A stretch of DNA of 44,757 nt from Acidimicrobiia bacterium (GTDB taxonomy: Bacteria > Actinomycetota > Acidimicrobiia > IMCC26256 > JAGPDB01), in NCBI GenBank assembly GCA_018057765.1, contig JAGPDB010000016.1, positions 1-44,757 of the forward strand, in the 5' to 3' direction. Positions 25,502-34,249 of the stretch are shown piece after piece (positions within the stretch are counted from its first letter, which is position 1; each line of letters begins with the position of its first letter). The notes beneath the pieces were generated by a model that was given only the letters and a program-made list of their open reading frames with translations, had not been told where the DNA came from and did not search any database. A program made the position numbers and the translations under genes.

Positions 25502-25574
25502 GCCGAGATAGCTCAGTTGGCAGAGCAACGCACTCGTAACGCGTAGGTCGTGGGTTCAATTCCCATTCTCGGCT
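25502..25574 (+). tRNA. tRNA-Thr (anticodon CGT)
   Basis: A full cloverleaf can be drawn: acceptor GCCGAGA/TCTCGGC (7 bp), D-arm GCTC/GAGC, anticodon loop CTCGTAA with CGT at 25535-25537, variable AGGTC, T-arm GTGGG/CCCAT with loop TTCAATT, discriminator T at 25574. CCA is not encoded. The anticodon stem has an A-C mismatch at its last pair (A31 at 25532, C39 at 25540). The anticodon reads the ACG threonine codon. A protein-coding start follows only three bases after the discriminator base. Confidence 0.96.
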
Positions 25575-25577
25575 CTT

Positions 25578-27020
25578 ATGACAATATACATAGCAATAAT
25601 GATAGTTATAGGTTTTGTGTGTTTTGTTGCATGCTTTTATACTTCTAAGAGGATTTGGGACATGCTTGACACACCAAGTGTTTCGCCGTCAGGTGCAATA
25701 GTAGGCATGTGTGAAATTATTGGTAAAGCATCGACTGAGTTAGATGCCTTTGCAAAATTGAAACCATTGATAAAAAGTCCAATCATGAATACTGATTGTG
25801 TATGGTACGAAGTAATTGTTGAAGAGTATGTACAAAAAGATGATTCAAAAGAATGGAAAAAAATATTCGAAAAGAAGCCATCAGATGGTTTTAGAATTGT
25901 TGATGGATATGGCGGCATATTTATTAACGCATCTCATGCAAAGAAATATTTGACTAAATCCACTGAAAAAAATAAATCAGTTGAAGCTATCAGCAAAGCA
26001 AAATATTTAATGGATGGCCCAGTTCTATCTTCCATAGAGCAGGAAGTGAAAAAATGGCAAACTTCTCCTGATGGATTTTATATGTATCATGTCAATGTCG
26101 GAAAATATATTCCAACTACCTATGTTTCCCCAGACAAGACACAATTTTTCGATGACACGAAACAAGTATGGACAAGCATAGATATCTCATCAAAATCCGA
26201 ATCGTTCATTAGTGGTATAAAATCTGTATTTGATAAATTAACTCAAAATGATTTAAGAGTAACTGAAACAATTGTTACCCCTATGCAGGATATTTATGCA
26301 CATGGTTATGTAAGTTTTCCAATTGGGAATATATCTTCAAATGAATTAAAAATTGACAAAGGTAATAAATTTGGTGGGTTATTCGTTTCTTCGACTGGAG
26401 AAAAAACTGCATTAACTAGTCAAAAAAGGATCAGGGCTGTTTTAGCTATTGTCGGAATGATTGTGGGTGCATTGCTAATCATTTTAAATAACGCAACAAT
26501 CAAGCCTAGTAGCGAATCAGACAAATACGAAATTTCATCTTTCAACTTAACAATTTGGCCGTATATTTGGCTTGCTTTAGCGTATTGTTTAAGTTTTTTT
26601 ATTTTAAAATTCGGACGTACTTTTAATCGGTTTATAAGATTAAAACAACAGGTAAATCTTTCTAAATCTACAATTGATACTGTGCTTAAACGGCGCAGTG
26701 ATTTAATACCACAATTAAAAGATATTGTTGATGGGGCAGCTGGTCACGAAGCTAATTTGCAACAGGCTGCAGCTGAACTTAGATCAAAAAATGATGACGA
26801 GTTCACAAAGACTATTTTTGCTTTAGGTGAAGCATATCCAAGTTTAAAAGTATCAGTAAATTTCATGCAACTACAATTCGAATTAGGCCGAACTGAAGAA
26901 AAGATTGCAATGGCCCGATCATTTTTGAATGATTCAGTATTAAATTATAATAATTTACGAGCTACCTTCGTTGGAATATTGTATTCACCATTTTTCAAAA
27001 AGATTGATAGAGAAAAGTAA
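25578..27020 (+). CDS. GIDE-domain plus LemA-domain membrane protein
   Basis: The 480-residue protein has an N-terminal membrane segment (about residues 3-22), then a long soluble region resembling the GIDE family (SGAIVGMCEIIGKAS..., SPIMNTDCVWYEVIVEE, an extended middle, PMQDIYAHGYVSF), two membrane helices (about 288-306 and 325-345), and a C-terminal LemA-type helical domain (QQVNLSKSTIDTVLKRRSDLIPQLKDIVDG...), with the RR-x-DLIPxL pattern diagnostic of LemA. LemA functions are poorly known, and GIDE was named from a mitochondrial E3 ligase membrane domain; there is no RING here. The ATG is three bases after the tRNA and the tRNA T-arm occupies the usual Shine-Dalgarno position. The next in-frame ATG, codon 8 (25599), would shorten the first helix; codon 28 would remove it. 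Confidence 0.8.
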   Translation: MTIYIAIMIVIGFVCFVACFYTSKRIWDMLDTPSVSPSGAIVGMCEIIGKASTELDAFAKLKPLIKSPIMNTDCVWYEVIVEEYVQKDDSKEWKKIFEKKPSDGFRIVDGYGGIFINASHAKKYLTKSTEKNKSVEAISKAKYLMDGPVLSSIEQEVKKWQTSPDGFYMYHVNVGKYIPTTYVSPDKTQFFDDTKQVWTSIDISSKSESFISGIKSVFDKLTQNDLRVTETIVTPMQDIYAHGYVSFPIGNISSNELKIDKGNKFGGLFVSSTGEKTALTSQKRIRAVLAIVGMIVGALLIILNNATIKPSSESDKYEISSFNLTIWPYIWLALAYCLSFFILKFGRTFNRFIRLKQQVNLSKSTIDTVLKRRSDLIPQLKDIVDGAAGHEANLQQAAAELRSKNDDEFTKTIFALGEAYPSLKVSVNFMQLQFELGRTEEKIAMARSFLNDSVLNYNNLRATFVGILYSPFFKKIDREK

Positions 27021-27172: not shown

Positions 27173-27808
27173 ATGGCATCACAAGAAACATTTATGGCAG
27201 ATGTTGATCCGTACCTGAACTCTTTGTATTCAACAGCATTGCGTTTAACGAAGAAACCTGCTGATGCACAAGACCTAGTACAAGAAACATTGTTAAAGGC
27301 GTATAAGGCATACGACAGATTTGAAGCTGGGACTAATTTAAAAGCTTGGATTTTTCGTATATTGACTAATTCCTATATAAATATCTATCGATATAAATCT
27401 CGTAGACCAAAAGAAGTGGATATTGAGAATACAGAACAAATGTTTATGTATCACAAATTAAGAGGTTCAACAGCAACTGATGTTTCAAAAAGTGTTGAGG
27501 ACGAATTCTTGAATTCAATTACTGACATTGAAATTTCTAAAGCTATTGAAGACCTTCCAGAGCAATTTAGAGAAGTTGTATTATTATTTGACGTAGAGGG
27601 CCTAAGTTATGCTGAAATTGCTGAAATGTTAAAGATTCCAGCTGGAACAGTGATGTCAAGGCTCCATAGGGGAAGAAAATCATTACAAAAAGCGTTAATT
27701 GATTATGCGAACGAAAATGGCATATACCCGTTAAGTTCAAAAACTGAAAATAGTGAATTAGTTAAGGCAGAAATGTCTGGCTCTGAAGGTACTGGGGAAA
27801 AGTCGTGA
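27173..27808 (+). CDS. ECF sigma factor of the SigR/SigH (redox stress) type
   Basis: The 211-residue ECF sigma factor has only regions 2 and 4. Region 2: FMADVDPYLNSLYSTALRLT, PADAQDLVQETLLKAYKAYD and NLKAWIFRILTNSYINIYR. Region 4: DLPEQFREVVLLFDVEGLSY and AEIAEMLKIPAGTVMSRLHR. The GTNLKAWIFRILTNSYIN text is characteristic of the SigR/SigH/RpoE group, and the next gene is a zinc anti-sigma factor of the RsrA type, which makes the assignment strong. These sigma factors control thiol-oxidative stress genes and usually their own operon. AAAGGA lies 11 bases before the ATG, slightly far. The stop overlaps the next GTG start (GTGA). Confidence 0.9.
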   Translation: MASQETFMADVDPYLNSLYSTALRLTKKPADAQDLVQETLLKAYKAYDRFEAGTNLKAWIFRILTNSYINIYRYKSRRPKEVDIENTEQMFMYHKLRGSTATDVSKSVEDEFLNSITDIEISKAIEDLPEQFREVVLLFDVEGLSYAEIAEMLKIPAGTVMSRLHRGRKSLQKALIDYANENGIYPLSSKTENSELVKAEMSGSEGTGEKS

Positions 27809-28167
27809 ACTTTGATATAAAGGGAATTGAAGATGATCCATGTGGGCCCGGCTCTGATTGTGAAAAGATTCTAGAAATTGTAAACAAATACATTGATGGA
27901 TGTGCCGATGACGATGAAACGTTATTAATAACTACGCACACACAAGATTGTATTGTTTGTAGGGATGGAATTGTGTTCGAGGAAAAATTTCGAGCAAGAA
28001 TTAAGTCCGTTAAGCCAGAATGTATGCCACAAGACTTGAAGAATAAAATGCTGATGTCTTTCGGATTTCCAGGGATGAATGAGCTTCCATCTGCCTTATC
28101 TAACGAAAAACATAATAATAAGCATCATTTTTTCAAATTTTTTCGCAAAAATGATCATACTGGCTAA
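27805..28167 (+). CDS. Zinc-binding redox anti-sigma factor (RsrA/RshA-like)
   Basis: The 120-residue protein carries the ZAS signature H45-x3-C49-x2-C52 (THTQDCIVC) and an upstream Cys19 in SDCEKILEIVNKYIDG. The spacing Cys-26-His-4-Cys-3-Cys is the same as in Streptomyces RsrA (C11, H37, C41, C44), where these residues bind zinc and form the disulfide that releases SigR under oxidation. Extra cysteines are C13, C33 and C74. The start is GTG in the four-base overlap GTGA with the sigma gene, preceded by GGGGAAA. The C-terminal about 35 residues are His/Lys/Phe-rich with no family resemblance I can name. It is soluble, with no membrane helix. Confidence 0.88.
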   Translation: MNFDIKGIEDDPCGPGSDCEKILEIVNKYIDGCADDDETLLITTHTQDCIVCRDGIVFEEKFRARIKSVKPECMPQDLKNKMLMSFGFPGMNELPSALSNEKHNNKHHFFKFFRKNDHTG

Positions 28168-28203: not shown

Positions 28204-28458
28204 ATGAAAAAACAAATCTCAAAATCGTTTTACGTTATTTCAATATTTCTAATTATGATATTTAGTAATATAACCTCTGCTTTTGCTGTCGATGAGGTAG
28301 TAACAAATGATGTTACGAAAGAAAAAGGCATCTTTAGATGGTTCTTTTGGCCAGGTTGGGCTTTTGGTGGTCTAGTAATTTCGGTTATAGCTTTAATGTC
28401 GTATTATTATTGGAAAAATGTTCTAGGCCCAAAAAAACGTGGCCGTAAAATTTCATAG
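28204..28458 (+). CDS. Small exported single-pass membrane protein, unknown
   Basis: The 84-residue product has a signal peptide (MKKQISKSFYVISIFLIMIF) with a likely cleavage after Ala in TSAFA, about 20 outside residues (VDEVVTNDVTKEKGIFRWFF), one membrane helix (WAFGGLVISVIALMSYYYW) and a basic cytoplasmic end (GPKKRGRKIS). I do not recognise the family. Its stop overlaps the tilS GTG by one base (TAGTG), so it is read with tilS and the purine/folate run, although its features point to the envelope. Confidence 0.65.
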   Translation: MKKQISKSFYVISIFLIMIFSNITSAFAVDEVVTNDVTKEKGIFRWFFWPGWAFGGLVISVIALMSYYYWKNVLGPKKRGRKIS

Positions 28459-29450
28459 TGATCAATTTTAAAGAATTAACATCACAAGTTATTTCTTTAT
28501 TAGATGCTAACGAAGAAGAAACATTTAGGAATTTTGCCAGATTACAAAACAAAAAGATTCTCATTGCATGTTCGGGTGGGGCAGACTCAATAGCTTTAGC
28601 ATTAATTTCATATAGTCAAAATATTGATTTCGCTCTTGTATATATAGAACATAATATTAATCCAACTACTCGCGAATGCGAAACAATAATTAGTGACTTG
28701 GCTAAAAAATTAAAAGTTGAATTTTTTGTTGAACATGTTGATCTTGATCTTAAAAATAATAAATCTAATATAGAGTCTCGTGCACGTGATGCTAGATATC
28801 AAGCATTAGAAAAGGTACGTATAGAAAATAATTACGATTTTATTTTAACCGCACATCATCTAGACGATTATGTAGAAACATTCTTTATAAATCTTATGAG
28901 AGGTTCGGGATCTGGCGTTGCTGCACTTAGCTCTGCAAGAGGAAATCTTGTTCGACCATTATTAAATTGGCGGAAAATCCAACTCGAAGAAATCGTTCAG
29001 AAGTGTGAAATCGAGTATTTTTCTGATCCATCAAATGACCTTGATTGCTTTGTAAGAAATAGGGTAAGAAATGAATTAATCCCGCTCATGGATGATATTT
29101 CGAATCGTGATGTTGCCCCATTAGTATCAAAAGCGGGTAATCATATAGCTAGAGATCAAAAATTTATTTCTAGTTTAGGGGCACGTTCATGGCCACTTGA
29201 CGGTAATACAAGCACTCGAACTTTAAGGGCACTTGATATTTCGCTTCAAAATCATGCCTTACGTTCTTGGATCATAGGAGATAAACCATCCGACAAAGAG
29301 ATGTCCAATATTCTCGATGTTGTAAATCATGAAATTACAAAAACTCAAATCTCTGGAAATAGAACTATTTGGCGTAAAGATGCAAAGATATATCAGAGTG
29401 AAACAACAAAATTATTAGAAGACCTAAAGAACAAGAAGCTGGAGAATTAA
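28458..29450 (+). CDS. tilS: tRNA(Ile)-lysidine synthase
   Basis: The 330-residue enzyme converts the wobble C of tRNA-Ile(CAU) to lysidine, so that it reads AUA. The N-type ATP pyrophosphatase motif is ILIACSGGADSIALAL; further conserved text includes YIEHNINPTTRECE, RDARYQALEKV, TAHHLDDYVETFFINLMRGS and DPSNDLDCFVRNRVRNELIP. It starts at GTG 28458 within the previous stop and its own stop shares one base with the hpt ATG (TAATG). The tilS-hpt order is widely conserved. The C-terminal part is short, as in other actinobacteria. Confidence 0.94.
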   Translation: MINFKELTSQVISLLDANEEETFRNFARLQNKKILIACSGGADSIALALISYSQNIDFALVYIEHNINPTTRECETIISDLAKKLKVEFFVEHVDLDLKNNKSNIESRARDARYQALEKVRIENNYDFILTAHHLDDYVETFFINLMRGSGSGVAALSSARGNLVRPLLNWRKIQLEEIVQKCEIEYFSDPSNDLDCFVRNRVRNELIPLMDDISNRDVAPLVSKAGNHIARDQKFISSLGARSWPLDGNTSTRTLRALDISLQNHALRSWIIGDKPSDKEMSNILDVVNHEITKTQISGNRTIWRKDAKIYQSETTKLLEDLKNKKLEN

Positions 29451-29988: not shown

Positions 29989-30858
29989 ATGACTATGGCC
30001 GAAAGTCTAACTTGGCAAAAGCTATTACTTAAAGACCGTCCATTAATATTTGGTGTTTTAAATTGCACGCCAGATTCATTTTCTGACGGTGGACAATATT
30101 TAAAAGAAAAAACAATTTTCGAGAAATTAGAATTATTAATTTCCAATGGTGCAGATGTAATAGATATTGGTGCAGAGTCAACCCGACCTGGAGCAAAAGA
30201 AATATCATATGAAGATCAGATGAAACGACTCAAACCTGCATTTAAATATTTGGAGAATATCTCAACTTCATATAATGGAAATTTTTCTATAGATACTAGG
30301 AATTCAAATGTGGCAAAAGAATGTTTATCTTCTGGGATAAATATTATCAATGATGTCTCAGGTGGTAATCACGATGAAAAGATGTTTGAAGTTATCTCTA
30401 ATTCTAAATCTCTTTGTGTATTAATGCATATGAGGGGCAATCCAAAGATTATGCAAACTTTAACTAAATATGAAAATATTGTTGATGATGTATGTGAAGA
30501 ATTAAATGTCACTATTGATTACGCAATTAAAGCTGGTATTCATGAATCGAAAATTATGGTCGACCCTGGTATAGGCTTCGCTAAGACACCACAAGATTGT
30601 ATAAATATTATAAAAAATATTGATGTTATTAAAAATAGATTAGGATTTCCAGTGCTTGTTGGTTTGAGTAGGAAGAGCTTTATCTCCAAATATATTATCT
30701 CTATTCAAAACATGGACGAATCGGACATGGTAGAGTGGGCAACTCACTACATGAGCATCTATCTTTATGAGCATGGGGTTGATGCATTAAGAGTTCATGA
30801 GCCAGGTTTTACAATTAATGCGATAAGATTTGCAAAAAACTTTTCAGACAAATGGTAA
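29989..30858 (+). CDS. folP: Dihydropteroate synthase
   Basis: The 289-residue TIM-barrel enzyme joins p-aminobenzoate to the pterin pyrophosphate in folate synthesis and is the sulfonamide target. Signature one is LIFGVLNCTPDSFSDGG; signature two is GADVIDIGAESTRPGA; then SIDTRNSNVAKE, INDVSGG, LMHMRG, VDPGIGFAKTPQDC, and PVLVGLSRKSFI near the end, all expected pterin/phosphate residues. An alternative ATG lies two codons in. It is 5 bases after hpt, with no obvious ribosome-binding site. Confidence 0.95.
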   Translation: MTMAESLTWQKLLLKDRPLIFGVLNCTPDSFSDGGQYLKEKTIFEKLELLISNGADVIDIGAESTRPGAKEISYEDQMKRLKPAFKYLENISTSYNGNFSIDTRNSNVAKECLSSGINIINDVSGGNHDEKMFEVISNSKSLCVLMHMRGNPKIMQTLTKYENIVDDVCEELNVTIDYAIKAGIHESKIMVDPGIGFAKTPQDCINIIKNIDVIKNRLGFPVLVGLSRKSFISKYIISIQNMDESDMVEWATHYMSIYLYEHGVDALRVHEPGFTINAIRFAKNFSDKW

Positions 30859-30893: not shown

Positions 30894-32330
30894 ATGCAGG
30901 TCATGAATTTCAAAATTCCTGTACAATCTATGGTTATGGTAAAAGGCAGGTGGGCACAAGGATTGATGCCCAGAAATTTCATTTGGATAATTAAAGATAG
31001 AATCGCTGTTTCTGAGCGACCTGGTGGATTTGCGAGAAATCATCGAAAAATTCGCCGTCAAGAAGAGCTTATTTGGTTGGATATCCACGGATTTACCCGT
31101 GTTGTATCATTATTGGAATCACCACATAATTTACATGCATACAATGATGCAAAGTTACATTTCGAACATATACCCTTAAGTCGACCAGATGAATACCCTG
31201 ACCGACTTTTATTTGTTTATATGCAACTAGACAGGTTCATATCTGATTCTCGCCACAAAATTTTGGTACATCATGAAGAATTTGGTGATAGAATACTTGG
31301 ATTAATGGGTGGTTATTTAATCTACTCAGGTTTAGCCTCAAGCGGTCCTGAAGCAATCCAAATTATTGAATCGATTACTTCTAGGGAATTGCAAGCTGAA
31401 GGACGAGAAATTATTTCGATAACAATTGAAAATCGATTGATGAAAGATTTCGCAAAAGAACATTTTGAAAAACGAGAGAATCATGCTGAAGTACAACGTT
31501 TGGCAAGAATTGATTTGGTTCGTAAACAACAATTAGATGCTCAAAAACGTGCGCAAGTTGAAGCTGCAAGAAAACGTGCACAGACTTTGGCAGCAGCAGA
31601 AATTGCAAGAGTTGCATTTGTAGCAGAAAAGAAGAAAGCTGCCGAAGAGAAAAAACGATTAAATAAACTTAGGATAATCCAAGCGAAAAAAGATGCAATA
31701 AAAAAAGCTGCTCAAGAGAAAAAGGAGGCTGCTCAAAAAGTTCGCGAAGCAAAAATAGAGGCACAACAAAAAGCTAAGGAAGCTGCAAAAGCTGCGATAT
31801 TAAAAGCTAAAGAAGCTGCGAAGATTGCTAAAGAAAAAGAACGTGAAGCTAAACAAGTGGCTACAGAAAAAGCGAAGATTGCTAAAGAAAAAGAACGATT
31901 ACGAGCAGTAAAAGCTAAAGAGAAAGCTAAAGAGAAAGCACGTCTTGCAAAAGAAAAAATAGCATTGAAAAAGGCGACAGATCTTAAAGCAAAATCTAAG
32001 AAGACTCCTACTAAAAAAGCTGTAGCTAAAAAAGTGGCATCTAAAAAGATGCCAGTTAAGAAAACTAGCGTGAAGAATAAACCCCTTCCTAAGAAAGCTA
32101 CTGCTAAGAAAGCTACTGCTAAGAAAGCTGCTGCTAAGAAAACTCCAGTAAAAAAAGCTCCAGTAAAAAAAGCTCCGGTAAAAAAAGCTCCTGCTAAGAA
32201 AACTGCAGCTAAAAATACTACTGCTAAGAAAACTCCAGTTAAAAAGACAGATTCTAAACAAAGTAAATTAACTACTTCTACGAAGCGCGCAACTAAGGCA
32301 AAACCAAAAGCCAAAGCAAAGAAGAAATAA
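30894..32330 (+). CDS. Tyrosine/dual-specificity phosphatase-like domain (catalytic Cys replaced by His) fused to a histone H1-like Lys/Ala tail
   Basis: This is a 478-residue fusion. Residues about 20-175 follow a cysteine-phosphatase pattern: [70 protein letters not shown]. The P-loop should read HCxxxxxR; here it is H126-H127-EEFGD-R133, so the nucleophilic Cys is His (CAT at 31272-31274) while Arg remains. Dephosphorylation by the usual route is therefore not expected. Residues about 185-368 are a charged Ala/Glu/Lys coiled coil; 369-478 are KKxPVKK/KKATAKK repeats like histone H1 or AlgP, expected to bind DNA or RNA. It sits between folP (35 bases) and folB (5 bases). The start may instead be ATG 30903, which has AGG nearby. 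Confidence 0.72.
31998..32330 (+). repeat. Low-complexity Lys/Ala/Pro-coding repeats
   Basis: The 3' third of the preceding gene is built from imperfect short repeats; near-identical AAAGCTACTGCTAAG units (from 32095) and AAAAAAGCTCCAGT units (32152-32190) give KKATA and KKAPV peptides. The reading frame is maintained throughout, but the repeats are prone to copy-number change and to assembly error. Confidence 0.8.
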
Positions 32331-32335
32331 TTTAA

Positions 32336-32701
32336 ATGCCCGACCAAGTTCAATTAAGAGGCTTAAAGATACTTGCTCATTGTGGAGCTTATGAAGTTGA
32401 GCGTGTAAAGCTTCAACCTTTTGAAATAGATCTTGACATAGAGTCAGACCAAACTAATGCAGGCCAAAGCGATTCTTTAATTGATGCTATAGATTATGAG
32501 TTAATATGTGAAGCAATACTTTCATTGGCGAACAAAGAAGAATTCTCGTTGCTTGAAAGAATGGCACAAAGAATATTAGACATACTTTTTGAAACTGATA
32601 AAAAAATAGATGGCATCTCGATCACATTAAAAAAAGTTCGTCCACCTCTACAAGCTGATATAACTACTGCTGGTGTATGTATATATCGTTCGCGTAAATA
32701 A
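32336..32701 (+). CDS. folB: Dihydroneopterin aldolase
   Basis: The 121-residue enzyme cleaves dihydroneopterin to hydroxymethyl-dihydropterin in folate synthesis. It shows LRGLKILAHCGAYEVERVKL with the active-site Glu in YEVER, the DAIDYELICEAI stretch, EFSLLERMAQRILDILFE, and the catalytic-lysine region ITLKKVRPPLQADI. The length is standard. It is 5 bases after the fusion gene and convergent with pyk, so this half of the folate run ends here and folK restarts beyond pyk. Confidence 0.9.
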   Translation: MPDQVQLRGLKILAHCGAYEVERVKLQPFEIDLDIESDQTNAGQSDSLIDAIDYELICEAILSLANKEEFSLLERMAQRILDILFETDKKIDGISITLKKVRPPLQADITTAGVCIYRSRK

Positions 32702-32757: not shown

Positions 32758-34161
32758 CTATGCGCGCACTATTCTAATCGCGTCAGTTCCACCTGCACGT
32801 TTACCTGGCGAACCGGACGCTACAGCTACTAGATCTCCACTATTTATATAACCTGCAGAAATACTCAGCTTAACTATTTGGTCTACTTCATGTTCTTGAT
32901 CAACTTTATCTTCCATTAATAAGGGGGCAACACCCCAATTTAATGAAAGTCGGCTCAATACACCTTCATGTTTTGAAATCCCAATGATTTTTGTAGAAGG
33001 ACGATAAGCAGCAATTCTTTGTGCTGTGGCGCCAGTTCTTGTAGGACATAATATTGCTGCAACATTTAAATCTTGAGCTGCTTGAACAACAGCGTGTGCA
33101 ACAGCCCATGCAACTGGGTCTTCTCCTAGTACGCAAACATCAGGAACGCGGCGCTTGCGCCATTCTTCAGCACTCATAGCAACCTCAGCCATTGTCTCTA
33201 CAGTCTCTTGAGCGTAAAGTCCTACTGCAGTTTCGCCAGAAAGCATAACGGCATCAGTTCCGTCTAAAACAGCGTTGGCAACGTCACCAACTTCTGCTCT
33301 GGTTGGTACTGGCGATGTAGTCATAGAATCAAGCATCTCTGTTGCAGTGATTACTGGGCGTCCAGCTTGATTACATGCTCGAATAATCTCTTTTTGCAAT
33401 AAAGGAACACGTGCAACTTCCATTTGTATTCCTAAGTCGCCACGAGCAACCATTATGGCATCAGATTCTGCAAGAATTGATGATAATTCCTCAACAGCGC
33501 TTTTAGTTTCAATCTTTGAAATTAAGTGAATATAACAATTCTTTGGTAGACGATCACGAATTTCTTTTACGTCACTTCCTCTTCTCACAAAACTTAATCC
33601 AAGAAAATCAACTTTATGTTTAATTGCAATATCAATAATCTTGTGATCTTTTTCAGAATATGGAGATATTTTATTTTCGCCATTAGGAAGAAAGAATCCT
33701 TTTTTAGATTTTAAAGAACCACCGATTGTAATTTTTATAATAATATCAGTATCTTTAATGTCGACAACTACACCACGTATTTGTCCATCCGCCAAAATTA
33801 TTGGATCATCAATATCCATCATTGTATATAAATCTCGAACAGATGTAGAAATAGTTTCACATGTTCCCAAAACCTGATCATTTTTTATAGTTAAAAGATC
33901 GCCAGCATGTAAAACAACTAAACCGTCTTCAACATCGCCATTTCTCATTTTTGGTCCTGGTAAATCAATCAGAATACCTACAGCTTTACTTAGCTTTTTT
34001 GATACTTCTCTAACTAATTCAATTCTGCCTGGAATCTCTTCAATATCACCATGAGCGCCATTAATGCGGATAACGTCTACACCTGCATGGACAATATTGG
34101 TCAAGGTCTCTATGTTGTCAGTGGCGGGTCCTATTGTTGCAACAATTTTTACTCTTCTCAT
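32758..34161 (-). CDS. pyk: Pyruvate kinase, K+-independent type
   Basis: The enzyme converts phosphoenolpyruvate and ADP to pyruvate and ATP. I start at ATG 34161 (467 aa, MRRVKIVATIGPATDN) because family members begin there; upstream ATGs at 34173 and 34203 exist and no start has a good ribosome site. LISKIETKSAVEEL holds the catalytic Lys, MVARGDLGIQMEVARVPLLQ the metal site, and PVITATEMLDSM follows. The K+ site text DLPGPKMR has Leu67 and Lys71, the pattern of K+-independent kinases. The usual RxNFSHG is RINGAHG here (residues 32-38), losing the Ser that contacts K+ in K+-dependent enzymes. The C-terminal regulatory domain is complete. It is embedded on the opposite strand between folB and folK. 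Confidence 0.93.
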   Translation of the reverse strand: MRRVKIVATIGPATDNIETLTNIVHAGVDVIRINGAHGDIEEIPGRIELVREVSKKLSKAVGILIDLPGPKMRNGDVEDGLVVLHAGDLLTIKNDQVLGTCETISTSVRDLYTMMDIDDPIILADGQIRGVVVDIKDTDIIIKITIGGSLKSKKGFFLPNGENKISPYSEKDHKIIDIAIKHKVDFLGLSFVRRGSDVKEIRDRLPKNCYIHLISKIETKSAVEELSSILAESDAIMVARGDLGIQMEVARVPLLQKEIIRACNQAGRPVITATEMLDSMTTSPVPTRAEVGDVANAVLDGTDAVMLSGETAVGLYAQETVETMAEVAMSAEEWRKRRVPDVCVLGEDPVAWAVAHAVVQAAQDLNVAAILCPTRTGATAQRIAAYRPSTKIIGISKHEGVLSRLSLNWGVAPLLMEDKVDQEHEVDQIVKLSISAGYINSGDLVAVASGSPGKRAGGTDAIRIVRA

Positions 34162-34249
34162 TACTAAAATCATAGGCGAGATAGGCCTTGGCATGTGAAT
34201 CAACTGCTAACTATTAACTAATATTGTTCTTTAGCAATTAAAGGGTGTT

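Follow-up and report, generated by a model that had tools for sequence, protein, structure and literature searches.

A single-copy protein family of predicted PTP/DSP fold but without the PTP catalytic pair, usually encoded beside folate genes in Acidimicrobiia: a possible rebuilt binding module

The window, that is, the whole stretch of 44,757 nucleotides that we analysed (Acidimicrobiia bacterium, assembly GCA_018057765.1, contig JAGPDB010000016.1), contains an open reading frame, here called X, lodged between folP and folB at distances of 35 and 5 bases, respectively, as had been described in an earlier reading made from the DNA letters without database searches (hereafter, the sequence-only reading). 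The features of the locus are listed below, with the residues numbered along the frame as annotated.

28458–29450, + strand: tilS (PF01171), part of the same run, further upstream; adjoins X directly in the f20 clade
29989–30858, + strand: folP, upstream neighbour (PF00809, E 4e-69)
30894–32330, + strand: X, the pseudophosphatase-tail ORF, 478 aa as annotated
30936–31445, + strand: conserved part of X, pseudophosphatase domain of predicted PTP/DSP fold (window residues 15–184; AF2, Foldseek, profile match)
31014–31076, + strand: family-specific motif E41-R42-P-G-G-x4-H50-R51-x2-R54-R55-x-E57-E58-x2-W61 (class alignment; mostly shared with family f74)
31269–31292, + strand: degenerate P-loop H126-H127-EEFG-D132-R133 (VHHEEFGDR; residue counts, alignment to HCRAGYGR of 25xa)
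31446–31946, + strand: predicted long, charged, Ala/Lys/Glu-rich helix, genus-specific (window residues 185–351; AF2, congener alignment)
31947–32330, + strand: tail of histone H1/HU type, predicted to be disordered, bearing KKAPVKK/KKATAKK repeats, stop codon included, genus-specific (HC2 score, disorder)
32336–32701, + strand: folB, downstream neighbour (PF02152, E 4e-26)

The translation of X probably starts at residue 15 (ATG at 30936, MVKGRWAQG), which start would give a protein of 464 aa, because in both remaining species of the genus no start codon precedes that position. In the surroundings, the stretch 27173–28167, upstream of tilS, encodes an ECF-type sigma factor—a sigma gene being near tilS in many relatives, too—and, with an overlap of 4 bases, a small protein with several Cys and His, possibly a zinc anti-sigma. 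A membrane protein of 480 aa, whose LemA domain is confined to the C-terminus (residues 364–474), is encoded at 25578–27020, beside the tRNA at 25502–25574, which was the sole RNA family found near the operon, riboswitches included in the search. Between folB and folK a pyruvate-kinase-like gene (32758–34203) lies in reverse orientation and splits the folate run, which arrangement is also present in several relatives.

A search of the PDB with the single sequence of X gave one match, the DSP 25xa (E 1e-3), and an order-level profile of the relatives of X matched that same structure at E 3.8e-6, with HHEEFGDR opposite HCRAGYGR. AF2, upon a 39-row class-wide alignment of the domain, returned a model with a mean pLDDT of 91.3 and a pTM of 0.88, for which Foldseek found DUSP23/VHZ as the best match in the PDB (TM-score 0.65–0.75), with a probability of 1.00 to DSPs and further matches to CDC14, KAP, PIR1, Siw14, Tk-PTP, and the baculovirus RNA 5'-phosphatase. 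The PTP/DSP pattern recognised in the core by the sequence-only reading is therefore borne out by profile and prediction alike, and we hold it as virtually certain that residues ~15–184 would adopt this fold. No Pfam model matched the X domain in a scan of 39 class members, while one further member gave a weak, sub-threshold match to DSPc; neither NCBIfam nor PHROGs contained a named family for the domain, and the literature searches made returned no bacterial pseudophosphatase or folate-operon phosphatase resembling X. The X domain is an undescribed single-copy family, in agreement with the initial remark that no described family was known to have such an architecture.

Searches for relatives of X succeeded in 57 of the 61 near relatives and, on a wider scale, in 362 of the 395 genomes sampled across Acidimicrobiia (256 of 268 among those of good quality), almost always with one copy per genome and even in genomes of ~1 Mb. 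The named records that bear X fall within Acidimicrobiia, for example Actinobacteria bacterium IMCC26256; three MAG records (L070, L072, L083) have this folate locus of Acidimicrobiia under the title Bifidobacterium breve, which is probably a wrong label. Outside the class, 296 genomes drawn from the phylum gave matches in one family only, f74, another actinobacterial family, where 29 of 42 genomes encode a sister family of X. In a tree of 129 sequences f74 came out as a single long branch, and those of the class clustered largely by family. The dN/dS of X was 0.014–0.10 in the usable close pairs, congeners included; X is therefore under strong purifying selection, which values rule out a decaying relic. 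A role as the regulator of an active DSPc paralogue was likewise discarded, no such paralogue having been found in G000 or in its congener G001.

The residues of the former active site were counted over 109 class members. Position 127, where the nucleophile would be expected, was occupied by H in 37, R in 23, Q in 15, G in 11, N in 5, and A in 4, and more rarely by E (3), M (3), Y (2), S (2), I (1), and C (1); ranking 136 of 170 by entropy, it belongs among the most variable columns of the alignment. The sole member with Cys lacks the loop Arg, which residue (Arg133) is retained in 65 members and lost in 44, so that not one Cys-x5-Arg pair occurs in the 109 sequences and the H-C-x5-R catalytic loop of the active Cys-based phosphatases is absent from the family. 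The sequence-only reading had correctly placed His127 at the nucleophile position of the window protein, with Arg133 present, and since the Cys is missing in the homologues as well, a sequencing error or a lone mutation is ruled out; nevertheless, His does not replace Cys across the clade, the position being freely variable. For the same reason His127 itself is excluded as a nucleophile, R, Q, G, N, A, E, or M being found there in other members. His127 and Arg133 are features of the order and not of the X family: an otherwise intact phosphate-binding loop with Arg occurs in the order to which the window protein belongs, that protein included, but not class-wide, which restriction also applies to the Asp at alignment position 84, a candidate general acid by sequence that is invariant in the order. 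On these grounds we consider it highly probable that the PTP chemistry has been lost in the family, and the retention of a phosphate-binding P-loop appears unlikely, given the free variation at position 127 and the frequent loss of Arg133.

A different set of residues is conserved. Within the class G23, P26, W31, G44, G45, R51, R54, E58, W61, and G136 are invariant and R42, H50, R55, E57, N79, and Y83 nearly so, whereas at the P-loop H126 is retained in 108 of the 109 members and position 132 is Asp or Glu in all of them; the near-invariant replacement set thus comprises W31, E41-R42-x-G44-G45, H50-R51, R54-R55, E58, W61, H126, and the acid at 132. In the 20 sequences that were counted of the f74 sister family (L190–L193, L203–L222), W31, E41, R42, G44, R55, W61, H126, and E132 are likewise invariant and H50, R51, and E58 each occur in 19, while the P-loop has a Cys in 17 and a Trp in place of the loop Arg in all 20 (pattern H[CV][DN]R-x-x-EW). 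Accordingly, neither family has the Cys-Arg pair, and the set that is conserved instead is for the most part common to the two. The family-specific motif occupies the loop that connects strand 2 to helix 1, together with the beginning of helix 1. In the structure of PTEN that same loop borders the active-site pocket, which location makes a rebuilt pocket in X a reasonable inference.

The extension of ~280 residues was present in every genome of the window's genus (3/3) and found nowhere else; most other members end shortly after the domain, and the open frame at L153 is longer. The first part is conserved among the three congeners and the remainder is of low complexity; the tail has 29–31% Lys and 23–26% Ala in all three species. 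In the full-length AF2 model the domain is followed by one continuous helix and then by a disordered tail, and what had been called a long coiled coil is predicted as a single, uninterrupted helix of about 167 residues (171–337 of the 464-aa form). The Lys-rich tail fused to the domain is real, though not kept through the clade, and its confinement to one genus indicates an add-on rather than the functional core. The tail matches the HC2 histone-H1-like model (PF07382) at E 3.8e-6 with 27.6 bits, under the Pfam cut-off of 40, and this likeness rests on composition and repeats. The same genome also encodes an HU with a KKAPAKK tail (C14) and, beside a second HU (C28), a separate KKAVAKKAPAKK H1-like frame broken by an assembly gap (N run), the coordinates being L224 1303–1827 and L227 1118–1728. 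The simplest origin of the extension would be the capture of such an HU/H1-like tail, and to judge by its composition the tail quite likely binds nucleic acid.

The position of X would suggest a participation in folate synthesis, either by the binding or processing of a pterin phosphate between FolE and FolB—the step meant being that of dihydroneopterin tri- or monophosphate—or as a scaffold for FolP and FolB. The order folP-X-folB-folK, with short gaps or overlapping frames, was found in 84 of 111 loci, so that the neighbourhood signalled in the sequence-only reading is widely kept; FolE is encoded elsewhere in the window's genome, and the steps between FolE and FolB are without an assigned gene in most bacteria (PMC1971073). 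The linkage is not constant, however. In the large f20 clade and in the f51 locus read, where the folate genes have moved, X lies directly downstream of tilS, with no folate genes found near it; FolB was detected in 10 of the 18 f20/f51 genomes, elsewhere and without X beside it, while the other 8 keep X although no FolB was detected. Conversely, f27 has folP, folB, and folK adjacent without X; and the f74 loci read correspond to an exopolysaccharide region with Bac_transf, GT4, and glycosyl hydrolase, and a search of four loci of this sister family found no folate gene. X can thus be separated from folate synthesis in both directions, since f20/f51 keep X apart and f27 omits it. Seven genomes of g36, a genus of ~1 Mb genomes, lack both X and FolB, which joint absence may result from assembly gaps, since X and folB lie side by side. 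As a separate observation, FolB and FolK of f20/f51 (L229–L238) mostly share a single open frame, which is probably a folB-folK fusion and often has a divergent folP next to it. Though the folP-X-folB order, kept in most of the class, could reflect a functional tie, the f20/f51 and f27 outcomes lower the likelihood of a folate function, a specific role in that pathway becoming rather improbable, and the position of X is most likely an inherited neighbourhood and not a sign of pathway membership.

On the basis of the fold, the loss of Cys-x5-Arg, the single-copy conservation, the selection, and the shared invariant set, we favour the interpretation—at a probability of about 0.5—that X is a PTP-fold protein without PTP chemistry that was remodelled into a binding module typical of Acidimicrobiia, with its folate site as an inherited neighbourhood. 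The basic strand 2–helix 1 loop would sit at the old active-site pocket and, together with H126 and the acidic P-loop, might bind, with no hydrolysis of the PTP type, either a partner protein or an anionic ligand (a nucleotide, a phosphometabolite, or an RNA end); that the rebuilt pocket binds a ligand we consider somewhat more probable than the interpretation in full, the clustering of those residues being deduced from knowledge of the fold. X would have inherited its place from an ancestral run sigma-tilS-hpt-folP-X-folB-folK and, in the window's genus, the domain was extended with the long helix and the HU/H1-like tail, which tail probably holds it on DNA or RNA.

Alternatively, X might be an enzyme with a re-invented active site, in which H50 and H126 and the conserved Arg and Glu/Asp residues would form a new catalytic or metal centre. 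The charged residues and the His are strictly conserved in both families, and H126 and the acid at 132 were kept while the Cys and the Arg were discarded; this conservation, however, is also to be expected of ligand binding, and no PTP-fold protein with a re-invented centre of either kind is known to us, so that we regard this possibility as doubtful. We would look with a similar reserve upon the broader proposal that the set ER-x-GG-x4-HR-x2-RR-x2-E, with H126 and the acid at 132, constitutes a new invariant active site with an undescribed role, in a reaction or in signalling, on which almost all Acidimicrobiia would depend, which site one genus would fix on nucleic acid by means of its H1-like tail. 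The STYX-like phospho-residue reader tethered to nucleic acid, put forward by the sequence-only reading, is consistent with the fold, the Cys loss, the loop Arg kept in the order, and the Lys-rich tail of the genus, but becomes very improbable when the Arg is lost in 44/109, the P-loop is acidic, residue 127 is unconstrained, and the tail is not seen outside one genus; it would be conceivable for only the window's genus.

To our knowledge, pseudophosphatases have been described almost wholly from eukaryotes. X is a near-universal bacterial pseudophosphatase within one class, strongly selected and with a fixed replacement set of residues, which family would offer a clean system for asking what role the PTP fold plays after its chemistry has been lost. 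The locus also illustrates a limit of operon-based inference, in that gene order, with X packed closely between folP and folB, points to a folate role, against which the clades with rearranged loci speak.

As to known systems, five class-wide proteins of unknown function with 99–226 aa were described as conserved signatures of Acidimicrobiia (PMC5962788); the X domain fits their distribution and size, the lengths of 185 and 194 aa being compatible, though the comparison is by description, the main text mentions neither folate nor phosphatase, and X, in view of the f74 sister, is not strictly class-specific. The tail resembles the KKAPAKK-type repeats of the actinobacterial histone H1-like and HU C-terminal tails, the HU of the same genome included, but in X a long helix connects it to a PTP-fold domain, and its score is below the HC2 cut-off. 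The eukaryotic pseudophosphatases of the STYX type likewise have a PTP/DSP fold with the nucleophile replaced; STYX, however, keeps the rest of its P-loop and a single change can make it active (PMC10211241), whereas in X several P-loop positions have diverged and another set of residues is conserved. Finally, DUSP23/VHZ and the bacterial and archaeal DSPs (25xa, Tk-PTP) are alike to X in fold, in the order of strands and helices, in the position of the P-loop, and in the His that precedes the nucleophile position; unlike them, X is without Cys-x5-Arg, has an acidic P-loop, and possesses an extra conserved segment, GG-x4-HR-x2-RR-x2-E, between strand 2 and helix 1.
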